Source: Propionispira arboris
GTDB taxonomy: Bacteria > Bacillota > Negativicutes > Selenomonadales > Selenomonadaceae
NCBI RefSeq assembly: GCF_900109225.1
Contig: NZ_FNZK01000004.1
Span: 124,001 to 188,000, forward strand
Length of the DNA: 64,000 nt
Reading direction: 5' to 3'
A program made the position numbers and the translations under genes. How positions within the stretch are numbered: the stretch's first letter is position 1; every line of letters begins with the position of its first letter. The notes under the pieces are model-generated. The model was not told where the DNA came from. It worked only from the letters and a program-made list of their open reading frames with translations, and did no database searches. Positions 4,501 to 42,490 of the stretch are shown here, in pieces.

Positions 4501-4702
4501 TTGTTTACCACTTGCTATTGCAACAGGTGCTGGTGCTGGTGCACGTAATTCAATGGGGGTTGCAGTTGTTGGTGGTATGGTTTTTGCCACAGCATTTGGT
4601 GTATTCCTCATTCCGGTTCTTTTTGTTGTAGTTGAAAAAATTACAGAAAAAATTTCACCGACCAAGAAAAAAGAAAAGGCATCGCCAACAGAATATATGT
4701 AA
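1547..4702 (+). CDS. RND multidrug efflux transporter, HAE1/AcrB type
   Basis: Proton-driven inner-membrane drug exporter of 1051 residues, full length for the hydrophobe/amphiphile efflux family. It begins MSRFFIERPIFAIVLAI, the typical AcrB amino end. The proton-relay aspartates sit in VVDDAIVVIENV (about residue 406) and the partner lysine in GLAAKNAILIVEFAK (about 940). Two large periplasmic loops separate TM1-TM2 and TM7-TM8. The start is TTG, 7 bases after AGGAGGTG at 1532-1539. It is cotranscribed with the adaptor and closed by a terminator. No TolC-like outer-membrane factor follows, so one must be supplied from elsewhere. Substrates cannot be read from sequence. Confidence 0.95.
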   Translation: MSRFFIERPIFAIVLAIMIVIIGTISGVSLPIAQYPQISPPTISVSTTYTGANASVVNQTVAQVIEQQVNGTDGMDYMSSNTDDTGRYSLSVVFKLGTDGDMDSVKVQNNVAIANASLPSDVQTVGVTTKKASADMALMVSLYSPNSTYNSVFMKNYADIYLIDKIKRVKGVGDVNIFGSDYSMRVWLNPDKLAELGLTVADITSAVKEQNVQAPAGTIGQMPAPKNQEFQYTGKVQGRLTTVEDFENVIIKAESNGSFVRLKDIARVETGGKTNNVVAKANGQPAVAFGVQLTNDANAMQTVSAVQKVIKDAAVDFPPDLEYQEVVDNTQYIRESIKEVLTTFAEAMLLVVLIVFLFLQSWRATLIPMLAIPVSLIGTFGAFVVLGFSINTLTLFALVLAIGLVVDDAIVVIENVEHHMRYSGLDPKEATKRAMDEVSGPVVAIAFVLAAVFVPVAFLGGIMGVLYKQFALTIAISMALSAFVALTLTPALCAMLLKPHDPNAHKGILGRFFDKFNDWFDRTNKGYVGAVTALIGKAKYCAILLLIIVGLTAFLYKVLPSTFVPDEDQGFFLTSVSMPEGTSLNRTQDVMDHLADDIKKNPGVKNVMAITGYDILSSAAKSNGGVMFIGLEPWSQRTSAETQINAQVGRVFGQGAMGYPQASVVAFNMPSLPGLGMVGGFTMQLQDMSGHTDEELNTITQNLVKAANQRPEVKGVYSTYKINSPGYEFDIDREKVKNLGVDISDVFTALQVNFGGTQVNDFNQFGRTYKVVLQADTKYRNEADTAKFIFVKSSSGTMVPLDTLLKPKLETAPSIISRFNAARSITIQGNVGDGYSSGQAITVMEEIAKQQLPTGFNIEWSGQSREEKNSSDATMQVLALALIFVFLCLAALYESWSVPYAVLLTVPTGVFGALLSEYVMNLQNSVYMQIGVIMIIGLAAKNAILIVEFAKVRVDKGMEPVKAAIEAAGLRLRPIIMTSLAFIIGCLPLAIATGAGAGARNSMGVAVVGGMVFATAFGVFLIPVLFVVVEKITEKISPTKKKEKASPTEYM

Positions 4703-4719
4703 GGCTGATGTGTTTATGA

Positions 4720-4747
4720 GGGGCTGCCGAAAGGCAGTCCCTTTTTT
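4720..4747 (+). terminator. Terminator of the efflux operon
   Basis: Nine-base-pair GC-rich stem (one G-U pair) with a GAAA tetraloop, followed by six T. Confidence 0.9.
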
Positions 4748-4895
4748 ATAAAATTGATAAAAAATGCAGCTTCAAGCCCTTTTCAAAGATTGACAATGTA
4801 TTATATAATAGTAAAGATAAAGCCAATCATTTGGTTCATGGTACAGGTAATATGGTATTAAAAAATAAGATCTTTACGAAGAGGAGTGTTTATTA

Positions 4896-5462
4896 ATGAA
4901 AAAATACAATCAAGTATGGATTCGCCAGATGCTTTTTGTTTGTTGTGCGGTGCTTGTGGGGACGCTTAGTTTTCCATCCCTGACGCATGCGGCGGATACA
5001 TATAAGTATACGAGTGAAAAATATGGCTATACAATTGAATGTCCACAAAAACCGGTAGGGGTTATTCCTCTTAGTGCAGTCTCTTCCGAAGAAAATGGAG
5101 ATGTTCTTATTTTCGATAATGATGGCTATAATATAAAAAAAGCCTGGATTATTTCAGTTGATGCATTTAAAGATGCAGATGTGCCGGATTTAGATAAAAT
5201 TTCTGATGCAGACAGAGATCTTTTATTTAAAAAATTATTAAGTAGTGGTTATGAATATGCAAAACTTGTTCCAATTGATGGGAAAAATGCTTTGTATACA
5301 GCTACTGCGGGAACGGATAAACAAATAAAAACATATATTCGTGGTACCAATAATCGTTATGCGGCAGTTTTAGTTGAACATCCTGATCTGACAAAAAAAT
5401 CAATTGATGCCTATCAAAAAGGCCTTATCTCATTCCGTGAAGTTGCAAACGGGACTAAATGA
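4896..5462 (+). CDS. Secreted protein of unknown function, PsbP-like in outline
   Basis: 188 residues with a clear signal peptide: positive start, hydrophobic core, cleavage near THAA at residue 33. The mature part opens YKYTSEKYGYTIECPQKP and contains an aromatic/charged beta-rich pattern seen in small PsbP- or DUF1795-like periplasmic proteins. I cannot name a function. Good ribosome binding site (GAGGAG) before ATG 4896. It is monocistronic: a terminator precedes it and another follows within 25 bases. Confidence 0.75.
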   Translation: MKKYNQVWIRQMLFVCCAVLVGTLSFPSLTHAADTYKYTSEKYGYTIECPQKPVGVIPLSAVSSEENGDVLIFDNDGYNIKKAWIISVDAFKDADVPDLDKISDADRDLLFKKLLSSGYEYAKLVPIDGKNALYTATAGTDKQIKTYIRGTNNRYAAVLVEHPDLTKKSIDAYQKGLISFREVANGTK

Positions 5463-5483
5463 TAAAGAACAAATTCAAATAAT

Positions 5484-5519
5484 AAAAAAGACAGTCATTT
5501 TATATGATTGTCTTTTTTT
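5484..5519 (+). terminator. Terminator after the secreted protein gene
   Basis: AAAAAAGACAGTCAT pairs with ATGATTGTCTTTTTT across a short AT loop. The A-run makes it potentially bidirectional. Confidence 0.85.
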
Positions 5520-5663
5520 ATGCATAAAAATCATAGAAACTTCTTGCTACTCGTATCTTCTGGAATTATAATAGATAGGTAAATGAAAAAATTCACGCAA
5601 TTCAGATGTTTTTTTGTTTAGCATAGTTTCAGAATACAAAATGAAGTTTGTGGGGGATAAGGC

Positions 5664-7436
5664 ATGAAGTCAATTAAAACGCAGATGGTAGTTATTTTGA
5701 ATTGTATCAGTATTATTTCAATCTTATTGGTGGGAAGTTTTGCTAGCTATGATCTATTTAGCGAAAATGAACAGCAGATTGCACAATATCGGGCCAATTT
5801 GCAGGATAGTGTAGATCATGAAATGCGTACCCAGGTCGAGATGGCTGTGAGTTTTATAAACAAAACTTATAAAGAGCAGCAAGCGGGAAGTTTGACACCA
5901 GACCAAGCTAAACTTTTAGCGGCAGATTATGTGCGTGATTTACGGTTTGGTGATGGTAATTATTTTTATATTGATACGGAACAGGGTGTCAATGTTGTTT
6001 TGATGGGCCGGGACGCAGAAGGTAAATCGAGAATTGATGCGAAAGATCCAAATGGAAAACTTTACATAAAAGAAATTATTGCAAATGGACAAAAAGAAGG
6101 CGGCGGTTATACCGATTTATTATTTGCTAAACCAGGGGATACAAATCCACTGCCTAAAAGAAATTATTCATTAGCCTTTAAGCCTTATGGCTGGGTTGTT
6201 GGAACAGGAACCTGGATTGATTACATTGATACCAAGGTTGCTGAACAGCAGAAAATTGCCGATGGGAATTTACATGCAAGCTTATTGCGGATGCTTTTGT
6301 GTATGCTTCTTATACAAATTGTACTTATGTTTGTCGCTACATATATCGGAAAACGTTTTGCAGCACCAATCATAGATACTACTGAACAGCTAAATCGTTT
6401 TGCTCAGGGGGACTTTTCACATAATGGACACATGGCATTGAATGATCGGACGGATGAGCTGGGACAGATGTCTCAAGCACTAGGTATTGTTCATAAAAAT
6501 ATGAATGAACTCATTAAAAAGATTGCCGGCTCTGTTGATTATGTGGCATCATCTTCGGAAGAACTTACAGCCCATGCCGATCAATCCGCTCAAGTGAGTG
6601 GTCAGACTGCCACATCGATGATTCATGTTGCGGAAGCGAGCAGTAAGCAAGTTGACCTCGTCAAAAGTGCAGCTGAACACGTTGAAACGATGTCGATCAG
6701 TATGGAAGAGATTTCAATGCATGTCGTTGAATCAGGAGAACAAATTGAGTCAGCTACGGGGGCAGCTCAAGGCGGTAGTGATGCTGTAGAACGTGCAATA
6801 GCGCAGATGGCATTGATTGAAAGCACGGTGAATAATTCAGCCGTAGTTGTATCGAAACTGGGTGCACAATCGAAAGAAATCGGTACGATTGTTGATACGA
6901 TTGCTGGTATTGCCGGACAGACGAACTTATTGGCGCTCAATGCAGCGATTGAAGCAGCGCGTGCTGGTGAACAGGGGCGCGGCTTTGCGGTTGTTGCAGA
7001 AGAGGTGCGGAAACTTGCTGAACAATCGAGTGAGTCAGCTAAACAGATTGCGGAACTTATCGGACCAATCCAGATTGATACAGCCCATGCGGTTGCAACA
7101 ATGGAAGAAGGTACCAAGCAAGTACGGATTGGTACCGAAGTTGTAACGAATGCTGGGGATTCATTTAAGCAAATTGCAGTATTAGTGGAAGGTATTTCCA
7201 ATAAATCGAATCAAATGGCTGAAGTCATTACAACGATGGCTTTAGGGACAAATGATATTGTTATGGCTGTACAAGAAATTGATACTATGAGTAAAAATGT
7301 TGCAGCAGAAGCACAAACGGTTTCTGCTTCGACCCAAGAACAGACGGCATCTATGCATGAAATTGCCGATGCGAGCCAGGCTTTAGCTCAAATGGCACAG
7401 GATTTGCAAGAAGCAATCGTCAAGTTTAAAGTGTAA
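5664..7436 (+). CDS. Methyl-accepting chemotaxis protein with a Cache sensor domain
   Basis: Transmembrane chemoreceptor, 590 residues. TM1 is at about 7-28. The periplasmic domain (35-200) carries the single-Cache pattern ([24 protein letters not shown]). TM2 is at about 207-229, followed by HAMP (230-283) and a full cytoplasmic signalling hairpin with the conserved tip [20 protein letters not shown] and EVRKLAEQS. The start at 5664 follows GGGGGAT. It stands alone with its own terminator, and no che genes are adjacent. Cache domains of this type often bind small organic acids; the ligand here is unknown. Confidence 0.93.
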
Positions 7437-7443
7437 TATTTTT

Positions 7444-7485
7444 AATTTTCCTGTCACGGACTGAACTGTGGCAGGAAAATTTTTT
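7444..7485 (+). terminator. Terminator after the chemoreceptor gene
   Basis: AATTTTCCTGTCAC pairs with GTGGCAGGAAAATT (one G-U) and is followed by a T-run. Confidence 0.85.
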
Positions 7486-7515
7486 GTGAAAAATACTTTA
7501 TGATGCGAAGAGATA

Positions 7516-7544
7516 TTGATTTTTTAGCAAAATAGATGTATCAT
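7516..7544 (+). promoter_or_regulatory. Sigma-A type promoter of htpG
   Basis: TTGATT at 7516-7521, 17 bases, TATCAT at 7539-7544. Transcription would begin near 7551, placing the CIRCE element at the very start of the transcript. Confidence 0.6.
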
Positions 7545-7554
7545 AATGTATAGA

Positions 7555-7581
7555 TTAGCACTCACAGAGAACGAGTGCTAA
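7555..7581. promoter_or_regulatory. CIRCE operator (HrcA binding site) upstream of htpG
   Basis: Perfect match to the CIRCE consensus: TTAGCACTC, nine bases, GAGTGCTAA. It lies just downstream of the htpG promoter, 35 bases before the htpG start codon. HrcA would block htpG transcription until heat stress. CIRCE is classically found at groE and dnaK operons. Confidence 0.95.
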
Positions 7582-7616
7582 CAAAAATTATTGAAATGGT
7601 AAAGGAGTTTGAAATT

Positions 7617-9575
7617 ATGGCTAAAGAAATGCATGAGTTTCAGGCAGAAACAAAACAATTATTGGATCTGATGGTTCATTCTATTTATACGAATCGCGAA
7701 ATTTTTTTACGGGAATTAATATCCAATGCATCGGATGCAATCGATAAAGCTCATTTCGAATCATTAACGAATCGTGAGTTATTAGAAGGTAATGATACAT
7801 TTGAAATTTATCTCGTACCGGATGAAGCTTCCCATACACTGACAATTTCTGATAATGGTATTGGGATGACGTATGATGAAGTCGTAGATAATATTGGTAC
7901 GATTGCAAAATCCGGTACGAAAGCCTTTATGGAAAAAATGAAAGAAGCCAAAGAAGCTGGCGGCGATGTTTCGGATAAGGAAATGATCGGTCAGTTTGGT
8001 GTTGGGTTCTATTCTGCCTTTATGATTGCCGAAAAAGTCACGATTGTTACCCGTAAAGCTGGTCAGGCAACTGCTGTGAAATGGGAATCAAATGGCGATG
8101 GCACATATAGTATTGAAGAGTGTGAGAAAGAAGCACGCGGAACCAGCATTACATTGACATTACTGCCAGAATTTTATGGCGAAAAAGCCGAAGAGAATTT
8201 TACGGATACATATAAAATAGAAACTTTAATTAAAAAGTATTCCGATTATGTTCGGTATCCAATTAAAATGAATTTTGTCATTGAAGAAACACCAAAAGAT
8301 GAAGAAGGAAAACCAATTGAAGGGGCTGAAAAAACAAAACGCGATGAAATGCGTACGCTCAATTCGATGCAGCCACTTTGGACTCGCAATAAAAACGACA
8401 TTAAACCAGAAGAATATAATGATTTCTTTAAAGAGTTATTCCATGAATGGGAAGCTCCGATGGATGTCCTGCATACAAAAGCGGAAGGTACAGTAGAATA
8501 TACCTCTTTGCTATTTATCCCTGCTCATGCACCATTTAACCTGTATCACAATGATTATGAACCAGGCGTGCAGTTATATTCCCGCCATGTATTCATTATG
8601 GATAAATGTAAAGATCTTTTACCGGACTATTTACGTTTTGTCAAAGGGCTGGTTGATTCACCAGATTTTTCACTTAACATTTCTCGTGAACTTTTACAGC
8701 AGAGTCGTGAGCTTAAATTAATCGGTAAAAATCTCGAAAAAAATATCTTAAAAACATTAGAAAGAACGCTTAAAAATGATCGTCCTAAATATGAAAAATT
8801 CTGGGAAGAATACGGCAAATCACTGAAAATTGGTATTTATAACAGTATGTATTCTGGTAATGATACTGTTACTAAATTGAAAGATTTATTGCTTTTTGTA
8901 TCTTCAAAAGAAGCTTCTACCGTAAGTTCTTTAAAAGAATATGTAGAACGTATGCCAGAAAGCCAAAAGAAAATTTATTATGCAACAGGTAAAGATCGTG
9001 AAACAATTGAACATTTACCACAGATGGAACTTTTACGCGAAAAAGGCATTGAAGTATTATTTTTACTTGATCCTGTGGATGAATTTGCGATTGAAACGAT
9101 TCGTGAGTACGACGGCAAACAATTCCATTCGATTAGTCGTGGTGATCTTGAACTTGATGATGTAGAATCACAGGAAGTTAAAAAAGAAACAGAAGATATC
9201 AGCAAGAAAAATGAAGATTTAATTAAAGACATCAAAGAAGCTTTAACGAATAAAGTATCTGATGTTAAAGTCAGCAACCGCCTTAAATCGAGTGCTGTTT
9301 GTCTGGTCGCAGATGAACAGGGACCAAGTATTGCGATGGAACAAGCTTTTGCGGATGCTAAAAATCCAATGTTTAAAGCAAAACGTATTCTGGAAATCAA
9401 TCCACATCATGATCTTTTTAGTCGTTTGCAGACTATCCATGGCACCGATAAAGAATCTGTTGAATTCAAAGACTATTGTGATCTCCTTTATACACAAGCT
9501 CTTTTGATTGAAGGTATTTTACCAGAAGATCCAATTGGCTTTGCGAATAAAATTGCTAAATTAATGGCAAAATAA
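7617..9575 (+). CDS. htpG: Molecular chaperone HtpG (Hsp90 family)
   Basis: ATP-dependent cytoplasmic chaperone, 652 residues. The N-terminal GHKL ATPase domain has YTNREIFLRELISNASDA (residues 24-41), DNGIGMT and GQFGVGFYSAFM. The middle domain includes the catalytic-loop segment NISRELLQQSR. The dimerisation domain ends the protein. ATG 7617 is chosen because AAAGGAG lies at 7601-7607; an upstream in-frame TTG would fall inside the CIRCE dyad. Single-gene unit with a consensus operator and a terminator. Confidence 0.97.
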   Translation: MAKEMHEFQAETKQLLDLMVHSIYTNREIFLRELISNASDAIDKAHFESLTNRELLEGNDTFEIYLVPDEASHTLTISDNGIGMTYDEVVDNIGTIAKSGTKAFMEKMKEAKEAGGDVSDKEMIGQFGVGFYSAFMIAEKVTIVTRKAGQATAVKWESNGDGTYSIEECEKEARGTSITLTLLPEFYGEKAEENFTDTYKIETLIKKYSDYVRYPIKMNFVIEETPKDEEGKPIEGAEKTKRDEMRTLNSMQPLWTRNKNDIKPEEYNDFFKELFHEWEAPMDVLHTKAEGTVEYTSLLFIPAHAPFNLYHNDYEPGVQLYSRHVFIMDKCKDLLPDYLRFVKGLVDSPDFSLNISRELLQQSRELKLIGKNLEKNILKTLERTLKNDRPKYEKFWEEYGKSLKIGIYNSMYSGNDTVTKLKDLLLFVSSKEASTVSSLKEYVERMPESQKKIYYATGKDRETIEHLPQMELLREKGIEVLFLLDPVDEFAIETIREYDGKQFHSISRGDLELDDVESQEVKKETEDISKKNEDLIKDIKEALTNKVSDVKVSNRLKSSAVCLVADEQGPSIAMEQAFADAKNPMFKAKRILEINPHHDLFSRLQTIHGTDKESVEFKDYCDLLYTQALLIEGILPEDPIGFANKIAKLMAK

Positions 9576-9678
9576 AATTTAAAAATTTTTGTATTTCAAA
9601 TAGAATTCAAAGACGTATAAGGCATAATAGGTCTTGTAGGTTAACTCATATTTTTTCACACACCCCAAGTTTCTTATT

Positions 9679-9713
9679 AAAAAAAGCAGGACATCCACAG
9701 TCCTGCTTTTTTT
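9679..9713 (+). terminator. Terminator of htpG
   Basis: AAAAAAAGCAGGAC and GTCCTGCTTTTTTT pair around a seven-base loop; a strong, symmetric intrinsic terminator. Confidence 0.93.
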
Positions 9714-9727
9714 GTGCGCTGTTATAG

Positions 9728-9777
9728 GCTGGCTCTGTAGATTTTACAGTTATGCCAATCTGTGCCAGCGGCTTTTT
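9728..9777 (+). terminator. Second T-tailed stem, possible terminator or attenuator
   Basis: GCTGGC (9728-9733) pairs with GCCAGC (9764-9769), with an inner CTGTAG/TTACAG-like helix, then GGC and seven T. It stands between a complete htpG terminator and the PTS operon, so it could end a short leader or small RNA rather than htpG. Confidence 0.4.
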
Positions 9778-9887
9778 TTATAATGCTACATTTGCCGGAA
9801 TTATTGTGCAAGTTTTTGCTGTTTACACAAAATATTTAGAACATTACAATAAGAATTAGGAAAAGATATACAGGGGAGACGATAAAA

Positions 9888-10604
9888 ATGAATCTAAAAG
9901 ATTTAAAAATCAAACTATTTGCGGATGGTGCGAATCTACAAGATATGATTAGTGTTTATAAAGAAGGTACAGCCGATGGGTTTACAACAAATCCATCCTT
10001 GATGAAACAAGCAGGCGTGAAAGATTATAAATTATTTGCCAAAGAAGTTTTGGCGGTTATTGCTGATGCTCCAGTATCCTTTGAAGTATTTTCAGATGAT
10101 TTTTCAATGATGGAAAAAGAAGCAACAATTTTAGCGAATCTTGCTAGAAATGTTTATGTGAAGATTCCTATCACAAATACGAAAGGGGAATCTTCGATAC
10201 CGCTTATTAAGAAATTGTCCATGCAAGGTTATCATTTAAACGTTACAGCAATTTTTACGCTTGATCAGGTACAATCTGTAGTCGATGCTTTAAACCCAAA
10301 AGCGGCAAGTATTGTTTCGGTATTTGCTGGACGTATTGCGGATACTGGAGTTGATACTAGAACACTCATGAAACAGGCAGTGGAAATCTGTCACGGTAAA
10401 TCTAATGTAGAGCTGCTGTGGGCAAGCTGCCGTGAATTTTATAATATTATTGAGGCCGAAGAAGTAGGTTGTGACATTATCACTGTTCAAAATTCTATTT
10501 TAGCTAAAAGTCAGAATTATGGTAAAGATTTAAAAGAGTATTCACTGGAAACGGTACAATCGTTTTATAAAGACGCTTCTGGGTTAGGGTTTTCAATCGT
10601 ATAG
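9888..10604 (+). CDS. Transaldolase-family protein (small, fructose-6-phosphate aldolase-like)
   Basis: 238-residue class I aldolase of the short transaldolase/FSA group. The Schiff-base lysine is Lys92 in NVYVKIPIT. TTNPSLM near residue 33, SVFAGRIADTGVD and the late hydrophobic strands fit the TIM barrel. It opens an operon with three ascorbate-type PTS subunits, so it probably acts on a phosphorylated sugar brought in by that PTS. Whether it transfers dihydroxyacetone units or simply cleaves fructose 6-phosphate-like substrates cannot be settled by eye. Ribosome site GGGGAGA precedes ATG 9888. Confidence 0.85.
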   Translation: MNLKDLKIKLFADGANLQDMISVYKEGTADGFTTNPSLMKQAGVKDYKLFAKEVLAVIADAPVSFEVFSDDFSMMEKEATILANLARNVYVKIPITNTKGESSIPLIKKLSMQGYHLNVTAIFTLDQVQSVVDALNPKAASIVSVFAGRIADTGVDTRTLMKQAVEICHGKSNVELLWASCREFYNIIEAEEVGCDIITVQNSILAKSQNYGKDLKEYSLETVQSFYKDASGLGFSIV

Positions 10605-39356: not shown

Positions 39357-39424
39357 GAAAAAACCCTACGTTTATGAAGCGTGTCTGTAAAAGATCTACC
39401 GCCCATATTCGTAGGGATTCAGTA
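39357..39424 (-). promoter_or_regulatory. Structured leader RNA, copy B, ahead of the BamE-like gene
   Basis: Read on the minus strand it begins ACTGAATCCCTACG, has a central TGGGCGGTAGATCT and ACACGCTTCATA, and closes with CGTAGGGTTTTTT. CCCTACG pairs with CGTAGGG and the product is followed by six T, so the closing helix doubles as an intrinsic terminator. It matches copy A at 42348-42413 over its whole length with paired changes in the outer helix. This is the layout of a riboswitch or attenuator. Confidence 0.7.
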
Positions 39425-39468
39425 TTTTGCTGTAAATGGTCCGATACATAATAAAACTTTATATATTT

Positions 39469-39497
39469 ATTATACTGCAAAGAATAATCATTGTCAA
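39469..39497 (-). promoter_or_regulatory. Consensus promoter of leader RNA copy B
   Basis: On the minus strand TTGACA (39497-39492), 17 bases, TATAAT (39474-39469). Perfect sigma-A consensus; start expected near 39462, about 40 bases before the leader fold. Confidence 0.85.
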
Positions 39498-39558
39498 ATA
39501 ATCATTTGACTTATAATGAATTAGTTATATAATAGTATAGCTAATTCATTAGTGATTA

Positions 39559-40458
39559 TTAAAGAAAGCCGTTATCAGACAGCCATTCATTTGCAACGAC
39601 ATTTGGGCTTTTACCATCTAAGTCAACTTTTGCATTTAGTTTTGACATTTCTTCATTGTTTATTTTTCCCGCTAATAAATTGAGGGCATCCGCAATTTCA
39701 GGATGCAGTTTCAACGTATCAGCTCGTACGAGCGGTGCTGCATCAAATGGTGGAAATGCATGTTTATCATCATCTAATACTTTTAAATTAAAGGCAATGA
39801 TTCGTCCATCGGTAGAGAACGCATCAATCACATCTACATTTCCGTCACGACAAGCGGCGTAGGTTAAACCTGGTTCCATGCCAGCGGGCGACTCGAATTT
39901 CATGTCATATATGGATTTAACATTTTCATAACCATCCACTCGTTCTAAAAATTCATGTGTTGCACCTAATTGTAGGGTGCCAGACTGTTTTGCTAAATCA
40001 CTCATAGATTGGATAGAAAGTGCATTAGCCTGATCTGCCCGCATCGCTAATGTGTATGCATTGCTAAAACCTAATGGCTTCATCCAGATAATCTGTTTTT
40101 TTTCTGCGTAGAGTTTTTTTACTTTTTCATAGACAAATTCTGAGCTGCTGGGCGCAACATATTCTTCACCTAAGATATTGACAAGAGCTGTTCCGGTGTA
40201 TTCAGCATAGATATCTAAATCACCTCGTTCAATTGCTTGAGCGACAACGCTTGTTCCGCCTAAATAGGCTTTAGTCTCTACTTTTAGATTGGTATTTTTT
40301 TCAATGACACCTTTCATTAGGTAAATCAAAATATCTTGTTCAGTAAAGTTTTTGCCACCAATAATGACGGTATTGGTATCTTTACCAAAAAGTGAAGAAC
40401 ACCCTAGAATACTCATGGTAGCCAAGATGGTAATCAGTAATAAAATAAGCTTCTTCAT
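39559..40458 (-). CDS. opuCC: Osmoprotectant ABC transporter substrate-binding lipoprotein
   Basis: 299 residues, OpuCC/ProX type. Lipoprotein signal (MKKLILLLITILATM, lipobox ILGC). The ligand-binding fold has VIIGGKNFTEQDILIYL, YLGGTSVVAQAIERGDLDIY and the C-terminal VANEWLSDNGFL. Binds glycine betaine, choline, carnitine or similar compatible solutes. Last gene of the opuC operon, 22 bases after the permease. Only one permease gene accompanies it; B. subtilis opuC has two. Confidence 0.92.
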   Translation of the reverse strand: MKKLILLLITILATMSILGCSSLFGKDTNTVIIGGKNFTEQDILIYLMKGVIEKNTNLKVETKAYLGGTSVVAQAIERGDLDIYAEYTGTALVNILGEEYVAPSSSEFVYEKVKKLYAEKKQIIWMKPLGFSNAYTLAMRADQANALSIQSMSDLAKQSGTLQLGATHEFLERVDGYENVKSIYDMKFESPAGMEPGLTYAACRDGNVDVIDAFSTDGRIIAFNLKVLDDDKHAFPPFDAAPLVRADTLKLHPEIADALNLLAGKINNEEMSKLNAKVDLDGKSPNVVANEWLSDNGFL

Positions 40459-40480
40459 AAAATCTTCCTTTCATAGGGTC

Positions 40481-41116
40481 TTATTTACTTTTGGGCTGTA
40501 CGGCAATTTCAATTTTCTTTAAGCCATAATCAAATATGACGGATAACAAGGCTGCTGGTATAGCACCAGCCAAAATAAGATCCTGTCTTGCCATAGCAAT
40601 CCCACGGAAAATTAAATCACCTAAACCACCAGCACCAACTAATGCTGCTAAAGTAGCTACACCAATGACCATAACGGTTGCGGTGCGGATACCTGCCATG
40701 ATAATAGGCAGTGCTAAAGGGAGTTCGATCATAAACAATACTTGCCTGGATGTCATTCCCATGCCAGTACCAGCATCAATAACAGATTGGTCAACACCTA
40801 AAATTCCTGTATAGGTGTTGCGTAAAATCGGCAAAAGACCATAGACGGTTAAAGCAATGATCGCTGGTCCAAAACCAATTCCAAACAATGGTACCATAAA
40901 TCCCAATAAGGCTAAACTTGGGATGGTTTGAAATACGGAAGTGATGCCGATAATGGTTTCAGCGATTTTTCGTTTTCGTGTAAGTAAAATTCCTAGTGGA
41001 AGCGCAATCAGGTTTGCAATGAATAAAGCGACTATTGTAAGTTGAAGATGCTGCCATGTGCCGATTATTATTTCAGGCCAGCGATTTTGTAACATCATAA
41101 AAAAATTTTCTAACAT
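40481..41116 (-). CDS. opuCB: Osmoprotectant ABC transporter permease
   Basis: 211 residues with about six membrane helices. The EAA-type loop GAGTGMGMTSRQVLFMIELPLALPIIMAGIRTA (spanning roughly residues 105-140) meets the ATPase. ATG 41116 is one base past the ATPase stop and has GGGGGG about ten bases upstream; earlier in-frame ATGs lie inside the ATPase gene. Presumably forms a homodimer, since no second permease gene is present. Confidence 0.92.
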   Translation of the reverse strand: MLENFFMMLQNRWPEIIIGTWQHLQLTIVALFIANLIALPLGILLTRKRKIAETIIGITSVFQTIPSLALLGFMVPLFGIGFGPAIIALTVYGLLPILRNTYTGILGVDQSVIDAGTGMGMTSRQVLFMIELPLALPIIMAGIRTATVMVIGVATLAALVGAGGLGDLIFRGIAMARQDLILAGAIPAALLSVIFDYGLKKIEIAVQPKSK

Positions 41117-41117
41117 A

Positions 41118-42266
41118 TTATTCATTCCCCCCGATAACTGCGTCATTATTATTGGTTCGCATTTGATTGGCCATTACATCAACTAAAGAGGCACGCGTTA
41201 TCAGACCTTTTAGTTTATTATTTTCATTTAGTACAGGTAGATATTCTACGTTATGTTCACTAATTAAATTGATGGCATCGCCTAATTCTTGTGATAGTTT
41301 AATAGTATGAATATCACGTTTCATGATATCAGCCAATACTATTTTTTCATTGGAAAAATTCTTCTGGATTTCACGTGCGTTGGCAACTCCTAAAAATGTT
41401 TTGTCTTTATCAACAATAAGTAAAGAATCTACTTTATATTTCCGCATTTTGGTCAAACCTTCGGCCAGACCAAAGCTTGGGAATGTTGTAATAGCATGAA
41501 CCATTACTTCTTCAATTGTTGGATATTTTTCGATTTGATTGATACGGTCAGCACCAATAAAGGTTCTCACAAAATCGTTGACCGGATGACGTAAAATTTG
41601 TTCAGGGGTATCAAATTGAATGAGCTTTCCAGCTTGCATAATACCAATTCGATCGGCGAGCTTAATTGCTTCATCAATATCATGGGTTACAAAAACAATC
41701 GTTTTATGGAATTTTGTCTGCAAATCCAAAAGATCATCTTGTAGTTGTTCACGGCTGATTGGATCGAGTGCACTGAAGGGTTCATCCATAAGAACAATCG
41801 GCGGATCCCCGGCCAAAGCACGAATTACGCCGATCCGCTGCTGCTGACCACCACTTAGTTCAGCTGGATACCGATTTCGATATGTTTCCGCAGGCAAATT
41901 GACCATATCTAATAGTTCATTAACACGCTTGTCAGATTTTTCTTTATCCCATTTTTTTAAACGTGGAACAAGGGCGATATTATCACCAATCGTCATATGC
42001 GGTAAAAGACCAATATGTTGGATTACATAGCCAATATTGCGGCGCAGTGCGACCGGATTTTCTTTAGCAATGTTTTTATTGTTGATTAGAACAGTACCAG
42101 AGGTTGGCTCGATTAAACGATTAATCATTTTCATCGTGGTGGACTTTCCCGAACCACTGGGACCAATTAGGGCAAATAATTCTCCTTCTTCAATATGAAG
42201 ATTCATATTTTCGACGGCGTGAAAGTCCTTGCTATACACCTTGTTTACATTTTTAAATACGATCAT
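41118..42266 (-). CDS. opuCA: Osmoprotectant ABC transporter ATP-binding protein with CBS domains
   Basis: 382 residues. Walker A GPSGSGKST, signature LSGGQQQR, Walker B IVLMDEPFSAL, and H-loop FVTHDIDEA, followed by a tandem CBS pair (about 250-375) that in OpuA/OpuC-type transporters senses ionic strength or a nucleotide such as c-di-AMP. ATG 42266 follows AGGAGGAGAT; longer upstream frames run into the leader RNA. Opens the opuC operon behind a consensus promoter and structured leader. Confidence 0.94.
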   Translation of the reverse strand: MIVFKNVNKVYSKDFHAVENMNLHIEEGELFALIGPSGSGKSTTMKMINRLIEPTSGTVLINNKNIAKENPVALRRNIGYVIQHIGLLPHMTIGDNIALVPRLKKWDKEKSDKRVNELLDMVNLPAETYRNRYPAELSGGQQQRIGVIRALAGDPPIVLMDEPFSALDPISREQLQDDLLDLQTKFHKTIVFVTHDIDEAIKLADRIGIMQAGKLIQFDTPEQILRHPVNDFVRTFIGADRINQIEKYPTIEEVMVHAITTFPSFGLAEGLTKMRKYKVDSLLIVDKDKTFLGVANAREIQKNFSNEKIVLADIMKRDIHTIKLSQELGDAINLISEHNVEYLPVLNENNKLKGLITRASLVDVMANQMRTNNNDAVIGGNE

Positions 42267-42347
42267 AGGGATTATCTCCTCCTTCTGGCAAAAATAGCCT
42301 GCGTTATTAAAATTTGCAGAGTAAATGCCTATCGAACGTTTTTTAAG

Positions 42348-42413
42348 AGAAAACCCCCAGCTATATGAGCGAACCTTTAACAGATTTACGCCCAATATAG
42401 TGGGGATTCAGTG
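42348..42413 (-). promoter_or_regulatory. Structured leader RNA, copy A, ahead of opuC
   Basis: Minus-strand CACTGAATCCCCACTATAT pairs with ATATAGCTGGGGG around an inner TGGGCGTAAATCT / GTTCGCTCA module, then TTTTCTCTT. Copy B shares ACTGAATCCC, the TGGGCG...CGCT core and the closing helix just before the T-tract, with different but paired bases in the helix. It fits a small ion- or metabolite-sensing riboswitch; the Na+-I (DUF1646) class is a candidate given its reported osmotic-stress targets, but I cannot verify the consensus from memory. Confidence 0.7.
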
Positions 42414-42461: not shown

Positions 42462-42490
42462 ATTATATTCTAAAAGAAAATTATTGTCAA
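42462..42490 (-). promoter_or_regulatory. Consensus promoter of the opuC operon
   Basis: On the minus strand TTGACA (42490-42485), 17 bases, TATAAT (42467-42462). Perfect sigma-A consensus; start near 42455. Confidence 0.88.

Follow-up and report, generated by a model that had tools for sequence, protein, structure and literature searches.

Do the two short leader regions that precede the opuC osmoprotectant-import operon and the adjacent gene for a secreted BamE-like protein in Propionispira arboris belong to a single RNA family, and how might they act on the genes behind them? Both lie in a 64,000-nucleotide stretch of contig NZ_FNZK01000004.1 (assembly GCF_900109225.1, positions 124,001 to 188,000 of the forward strand), which was analysed as a whole and is called the window below. 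A preliminary description, made from the sequence alone, had taken them for twin terminator-type riboswitches. Sequence comparison gives good support to the view that these are related terminator leaders with a link to osmotic stress, and covariation was found in other genera. That these leaders, which we named type A, are a riboswitch with its sensor inside the terminator, serving an osmotic and envelope-stress regulon, is probable.

The window contains two minus-strand transcription units, opuCA-opuCB-opuCC (42266 to 39559) and the BamE-like gene (39222 to 38320), and the 5' region of each shows the same order of elements, namely a promoter, a short AU-rich stretch and a hairpin with GGG at its end, then a T-rich tract (Table 1). 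The two related leaders were located where they had been described, and both contain ACTGAATCCC, a GGGCG...CGCT core and a helix placed right before the T-rich tract. The perfect promoters announced for them were also present, and within the 10 kb scanned these were the only two sites matching the consensus at all 12 positions. The bases of the outer helix differ between the leaders and the pairing is kept: the bamE leader has CCCUACG/CGUAGGG with an internal loop in its inner part, and the opuC leader has CCCCA/UGGGG, beyond which the helix is longer and less interrupted, the two registers being offset by one base. The distance from leader to gene is 83 nucleotides for opuC and 136 nucleotides for the BamE-like gene. 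Local alignment of the two leaders gave a score of 70, compared to 25.4 (standard deviation 3.9) for shuffled sequences, none of 2000 of which reached it, and the likeness is therefore far above chance. When the opuC leader was compared with the 64-kb window in steps of 10, the bamE leader scored best among the non-self matches (66); the reverse strand of the opuC leader came next (53), ahead of an unrelated site (52). Folding against dinucleotide shuffles yielded z values of -5.97 for the trimmed opuC leader and -5.60 with more flank, and of -3.31 and -2.59, respectively, for the bamE leader.

Table 1. Features of the two transcription units in the window (positions of the window)
Feature	Position	Strand	Remarks
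Sigma-70-type promoter of the opuC leader	42462..42490	-	TTGACA-17-TATAAT, 12/12 consensus positions
Type A leader before opuC (with terminator stem P1, P2, tip P3 and a T-rich tract)	42350..42408	-	
opuCA, ABC ATPase with CBS domains	41118..42266	-	TIGR01186 proV 421 bits, over cut-off; PF00005, PF00571
opuCB, permease	40481..41116	-	PF00528 73 bits (query 40484-41107)
opuCC, osmoprotectant-binding protein	39559..40458	-	PF04069 218 bits
Sigma-70-type promoter of the BamE-like gene leader	39469..39497	-	TTGACA-17-TATAAT, 12/12 consensus positions
Type A leader upstream of the BamE-like gene	39359..39419	-	
Secreted BamE-like protein gene, 300 residues	38320..39222	-	Signal-peptide-like start

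Homologues of the BamE-like protein were found in 10 of 60 relatives and in 17 named loci, and a diverged form of the leader was present upstream of the Pelosinus and Megamonas sp. UBA1796 homologues. Strict sequence patterns, which matched Propionispira only, had suggested a genus-only repeat; this was overturned by tracing the BamE-like gene, and the matches of these patterns in four other genomes were chance-like. A covariance model (R1) was built from 11 leaders, including those of the window, whose scores of 52.4 bits (opuC) and 65.4 bits (bamE) are thus those of sequences that are themselves part of the model. Among 300 genomes of the class, nine were positive, the window genome and eight of the genus of Pelosinus fermentans JBW45, and a search of 200 relatives of one Pelosinus genome (G095) recovered the same eight. 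In 30 chosen genomes, strong matches were obtained in P. raffinosivorans (three) and UBA1796 (five), weak ones in nine genomes (expectation values, E, of 0.055-0.77, set aside), and 19 remained below the threshold. Among 398 genomes of the phylum only the window genome and one chance-like match were found, the latter (G468, 26.2 bits, E 0.0069) resembling an ordinary terminator and being set aside as well.

Altogether, 19 type A copies were identified in Propionispira, UBA1796 and Pelosinus, and the genes downstream of them, oriented like the leader and assigned by tblastn on the loci, were opuCA in three cases, a BamE-like gene in 15 and a BamE-like fragment in one (L071, a match of 29 residues, E 7e-6). 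The three opuCA copies belong to the window genome, P. raffinosivorans and UBA1796, and thus to two genera. The copy of UBA1796 sits in a 7.5-kb stretch that has no BamE-like gene, and the pairing with opuC is therefore not a matter of mere adjacency. The third copy of the window genome is located on another contig, before a duplicated and degenerate BamE-like gene, and the sister species P. raffinosivorans also has three copies. The duplicated BamE-like genes (L003 on contig C24 of G000, the window genome, and L007 on C21 of G001) share an identical leader core and have a damaged or absent N-terminus.

Besides opuC in two genera, targets that suit osmotic and envelope stress were encountered in Pelosinus, where an sll1863-like and/or GlsB/YmgE-like gene followed the BamE-like gene in five of the seven genomes inspected by eye. 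At one of these loci (L044) the partner genes matched the sll1863 family with 98 bits (cut-off 35) and PF04226 with 51 bits (cut-off 25). A second Pelosinus cluster, which has no leader, carries a BamE-like gene, a gene for a 175-residue protein, a GlsB-type gene and opuCABC in a row, and thereby ties the BamE-like, GlsB-type and opuC genes together. In P. fermentans JBW45 (L103, about 4700-10000) the row reads YtxH-like, BamE-like, GlsB-type, opuCABC, and stands behind what by eye is a sigma-54-like site (TGGCATGGTTATTGCA) and behind an apparent response-regulator/kinase pair. No Rfam element reached its cut-off in 19 opuC loci of other Negativicutes, and in the 10 of them searched with a type A model (R2), together with L103, nothing scored better than E 0.51. 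At many other opuC loci of Negativicutes (L087, L088 and L090-L098) the opuCA promoters overlap inverted repeats of the GTTGTTAG type, which by eye resemble a GbsR/MarR-type operator.

The type A consensus is a single hairpin. Its stem P1 is split in two by a bulge; above it come an internal loop, a short P2 and the tip GUAGAUCU...ACAGAYAC, which includes helix P3 (UCU/AGA) and is the most conserved part. RNAalifold on 11 leaders returned the same P1-P2-P3 arrangement. In an alignment of 15 leaders, 89.7% of the cells pair, compared to 78.7% in shuffles (0/500), 26 cells are changed on both sides, compared to 11.8 (0/500), and the covariation score is 0.455, compared to 0.275 (0/500), with slid-partner controls at 0.098-0.189. 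A T-rich tract follows P1 in all 15 aligned leaders, interrupted by a C in L034 and in the opuC leader of the window, and P1 together with this tract forms a recognisable expression platform. A conserved 5' leader structure with covariation, of the kind by which riboswitches are recognised, is thus present, and homologues with compensatory changes do exist. In a less circular test, a hidden Markov model of 13 leaders from outside the window, aligned beforehand with a model to which the window sequences had contributed, retrieved the bamE leader (E 1.5e-8) and the opuC leader (E 6.6e-4) from the 64 kb, the next match having an E of 1.2. A model of the five UBA1796 leaders only also recovered both (1.5e-5 and 0.0021), whereas one of the eight Pelosinus leaders only recovered the bamE leader (E 8.9e-6) and not the opuC leader.

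In all 14 members examined, a promoter-like site with a 17-nucleotide spacer lies upstream of P1, and the predicted transcription start is 25-46 nucleotides before P1. In four Pelosinus loci (L034, L045, L048 and L049) only 46-53 nucleotides separate the end of the motif from the gene start, which is too short for a second promoter and a ribosome site; the gene therefore needs read-through in these loci, which points to a cis-acting attenuator. In four others (L016, L036, L038 and L054) the gap is 98-152 nucleotides. On balance we favour, with somewhat better than even confidence, a single family of leaders that attenuate transcription in cis and in which a sensor tip decides on termination. 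RNA polymerase would start at the strong promoter and first make a hairpin of roughly 60 nucleotides, whose closing stem P1 would be the intrinsic terminator and would carry the internal loop, P2 and the conserved tip above it. With the tip and P2 folded around the signal, P1 would be held closed, the T-tract would release the transcript and the gene would be off, and in the absence of the signal P1 would close too slowly and the polymerase would read into opuC or the BamE-like gene. The position of the conserved tip above the terminator stem suggests that timely closure of P1 depends on how the tip folds. Both the conditional nature of the termination and its off-direction are inferred, and the signal would be a small molecule or ion linked to osmotic or envelope stress rather than a protein. 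Hints on this signal come from the target genes and from a cyclic di-GMP riboswitch that precedes one distant BamE-like homologue (see below). Further hints concern cyclic di-AMP. Cyclic di-AMP (c-di-AMP) synthase domains and c-di-AMP riboswitches were present in all eight genomes tested, and the CBS domains of OpuCA are bound by c-di-AMP in other bacteria.

Several results weigh against this reading. Two of the five covariation measures did not exceed the shuffles, as six pairs showed a double change compared to 5.3 (212/500) and the number of pair types was not raised either (98/500). Moreover, the 15 leaders had been aligned by fitting them to the model, and five of those from Pelosinus differ little from one another. 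Three members, when folded singly, did no better than shuffles (z of -0.19 for L016, -0.60 for L070 and -1.10 for L038). The family is narrow, with nine of 300 genomes of the class, and the stress-gene partners are missing in two of the seven Pelosinus genomes inspected (G131 and G095). Finally, the predicted folds of the members were inspected for an antiterminator that pairs with the 5' leader, and none common to the family was found. A competing hairpin, UGUACAG/CUGUACA (or CUGUAUA), was seen only in L034, L036, L044, L045 and L048, by eye and in the folds of L034 and L048; it would open P2 and part of P1, and is a possible antiterminator in this Pelosinus subgroup only. A leader-peptide attenuator was considered too and rejected by eye: open frames cross the hairpin (in opuC, a TTG frame of 20 codons, and in some Pelosinus leaders), but none was seen to be conserved.

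The strongest competitor of the ligand-sensing attenuator is a protein-dependent one, in which a regulatory protein instead of a small ligand binds the tip and sets termination; we regard it as doubtful and yet deserving attention. The small and simple core, with 66 model positions in one hairpin, would suit a protein-binding site, as would a tip that is conserved above all else and the lack of a conserved antiterminator or junction. However, no gene for an RNA-binding protein was conspicuous by eye beside the inspected loci, and the conserved unpaired positions adjoining P3 fit an aptamer as well.

It is considerably less likely that the element is an independent small RNA, a promoter-terminator unit behind which the genes have promoters of their own. 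The strong promoter-like site and the terminator agree with such a unit, and the gaps of 83 to 190 nucleotides between hairpin and gene in Propionispira and UBA1796 leave room for a promoter. All 19 copies, however, lie upstream of opuC, a BamE-like gene or its remnant, and the short distances of the four Pelosinus loci speak against it.

Descent from a catalogued riboswitch class, that is Na+-I (DUF1646), c-di-AMP or cyclic di-GMP (c-di-GMP-I), whose mechanism would overlap with the attenuation favoured here, appears very unlikely. The first class had been put forward as a candidate for the window leaders and the second named for checking, and the targets of the leaders resemble those of both (PMC9337991). 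With Rfam 15, no family reached its cut-off anywhere in the window, and the scans of both leaders gave chance-level entries only, up to E 10. The Na+-I model was not listed for the window leaders at E 10 nor for a Pelosinus leader (L044) at E 5, and the c-di-AMP model (RF00379) matched none of them at the same limits, so that neither class was borne out. The low-scoring entries for the window leaders, L044 and L026 were all far below cut-off and were dismissed as chance. Ordinary c-di-AMP riboswitches occur elsewhere in the same genomes. Two were located in the window genome (L104 at C24:11791 and L105 at C33:35115 of G000), preceding genes that by eye are NlpC/P60-like and KimA-like. At curated cut-offs, Rfam detected a single element in 14 BamE-like loci, a c-di-GMP-I riboswitch (54.8 bits) before one distant homologue, which lends this descent some colour; it lies at 2514-2605 on the minus strand of L020, on the same contig as L043, in a Bacillota metagenome-assembled genome. 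Type A does not precede all BamE-like genes: in a set of 14 loci the leaders were of type A in six cases, of a second type described below in one and of c-di-GMP-I in one, and none of these was seen in the remaining six.

Individual classes share some features with type A and differ in others. The c-di-AMP riboswitch (ydaO-yuaA) regulates K+ and osmotic genes, and thus has targets of the same kind and occurs in the same genomes, but it has 134 model positions compared to 66 in type A. The Na+-I RNA is likewise a short leader that acts on an intrinsic terminator before osmotic and ion genes; it is built of two extended helices, conserved bases lie at the base of P1 and within the P2 loop, and its terminator competes with P2 (PMC9337991), whereas in type A a single hairpin would be both sensor and terminator. 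Orphan candidates were compared by their published descriptions. The proX motif of Spiribacter precedes a glycine-betaine transporter gene, but belongs to another phylum and is thought to occlude the ribosome-binding site with its P2 (PMC8632094). The opuB motif, mostly from Enterobacteriaceae, precedes an opu-type importer, but has five paired substructures, with the Shine-Dalgarno sequence in P1, and its ligand, described as relevant to shikimate biosynthesis, is given as unpublished in that paper (PMC11109978). The ldh2 and gltD motifs are orphan candidates of Negativicutes, in Selenomonadales and Veillonellales, the former with a three-stem junction, but were reported before Ldh_2 and gltD genes (PMC8632094), which were not seen behind the leaders of either type studied here. 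The trpB motif (RF04312), from leaders of Firmicutes, likewise has hairpins together with an intrinsic terminator (PMC11109978), but matched the bamE leader at chance level only (16.1 bits, cut-off 59, E 4.8). No report of the type A element was found in searches of the open-licence PMC literature, and type A is thus apparently an uncatalogued, orphan leader RNA family of narrow range, set apart from the opuB, proX, ldh2 and gltD motifs by their descriptions.

A recent copy of a promoter-terminator block placed beside its source and having no regulatory meaning, as the adjoining units in Propionispira and the third copy that arrived with a duplicated BamE-like gene might indicate, is hardly credible given the isolated opuC copy of UBA1796 and the Pelosinus copies, which have diverged in sequence with their pairing kept.

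The second target was examined by structure prediction. In an AlphaFold2 model based on 12 sequences (predicted local distance difference test of 81.2 for the best model and 65-74 for the other four), the protein consists of two SH3-like domains (about 36-131 and 138-223) and a C-terminal BamE-like domain (about 243-294). Over 51-52 residues this last region aligns with BamE proteins from Neisseria and from the BAM complex (root-mean-square deviations of 2.0-4.4); BamE chain 5wam_B is the top match (Z 6.0) and BamE chain 7tt0_E the third (Z 5.8), values too low to be conclusive by themselves. Foldseek found no PDB match for the model at E 0.001, BamE being at E 0.059. No Pfam or NCBIfam family scored over its cut-off for the window protein; PF04355 (cut-off 23.2) did not match it, and the best homologue scanned reached 12.8 bits (L038). 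The original designation therefore stands for the last 50 residues or so, by fold, and not as a Pfam assignment, and as the Z values are modest the protein is named BamE-like only.

A longer and apparently undescribed leader, type B, was first met before two BamE-like genes (L026 and L040), and a model (R3) built from these two leaders detected 24 copies at E 0.01, spread over 20 of the 380 Negativicutes genomes searched and 11 of 102 genera (loci L106-L130, for example L108 at 1501-1581 on the plus strand, and L040 at 2098-2179 on the plus strand). It is present in Pelosinus and UBA1796 and not in the two Propionispira genomes. L040 is a contig of a metagenome-assembled genome titled Neobacillus; its type B leader and BamE-like gene are otherwise mainly found in Negativicutes, and the contig is probably mis-binned. 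The type B fold is a three-way junction with covariation, as 10 pairs show a double change in 21 sequences compared to 4.9 in shuffles (0/500), with 21 pair types compared to 19.5 (113/500). No Rfam family reached its cut-off for the leader in the 16 loci scanned, nor for L026 at thresholds up to E 5, and in a scan of 20 loci that included type B a single T-box was recovered, away from the leader. An ATG 7-9 nucleotides after the 3' strand of P1 (AGGAGG, AGGGGG or alike) was present in 18 of 21 type B leaders compared to one of 15 type A leaders, any ATG being counted, and in the BamE-like copies this ATG opens a short frame only. From this spacing, P1 would hide the Shine-Dalgarno sequence in the GH130-type copies, a likeness to the opuB motif; the junction recalls that of ldh2. 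The genes behind type B, with families checked on one example each, are BamE-like genes with GlsB or sll1863, GlsB alone, a GH130 phosphorylase with a glycosyltransferase, a small protein whose ADP-ribosyltransferase-like match stays below threshold, a GGDEF protein and an rpoZ-like gene.

The P1 strands of the two types are alike, as L054 and L016 each agree with many type B leaders at 9 of 10 bases. The type B model gave no match at E 10 on 13 type A loci, and the type A model R2 found the type B leader L026 at E 2 only. As the models do not find each other, the kinship is based on the P1 strands and the shared target gene, which suggest a common origin. More tentatively still, and rather improbable as a whole, types A and B may both belong, as separate branches, to a single undescribed superclass of Negativicutes riboswitches that reads one osmotic/envelope-stress signal, perhaps a cyclic dinucleotide; both would have in common a closing stem AACCNCC.NCG / CGN.AGGNGGUU with a bulged A, by which type B hides the Shine-Dalgarno sequence and which type A would have turned into a terminator.

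With its covariation, clear Shine-Dalgarno platform and varied genes, type B is an orphan riboswitch candidate for which ligand hunting is practical. As for type A, if the reading favoured here is true, it would be a short RNA, amenable to testing, that carries its sensor within the terminator hairpin itself and is tied to compatible-solute import and to envelope proteins in Negativicutes, the diderm Firmicutes.

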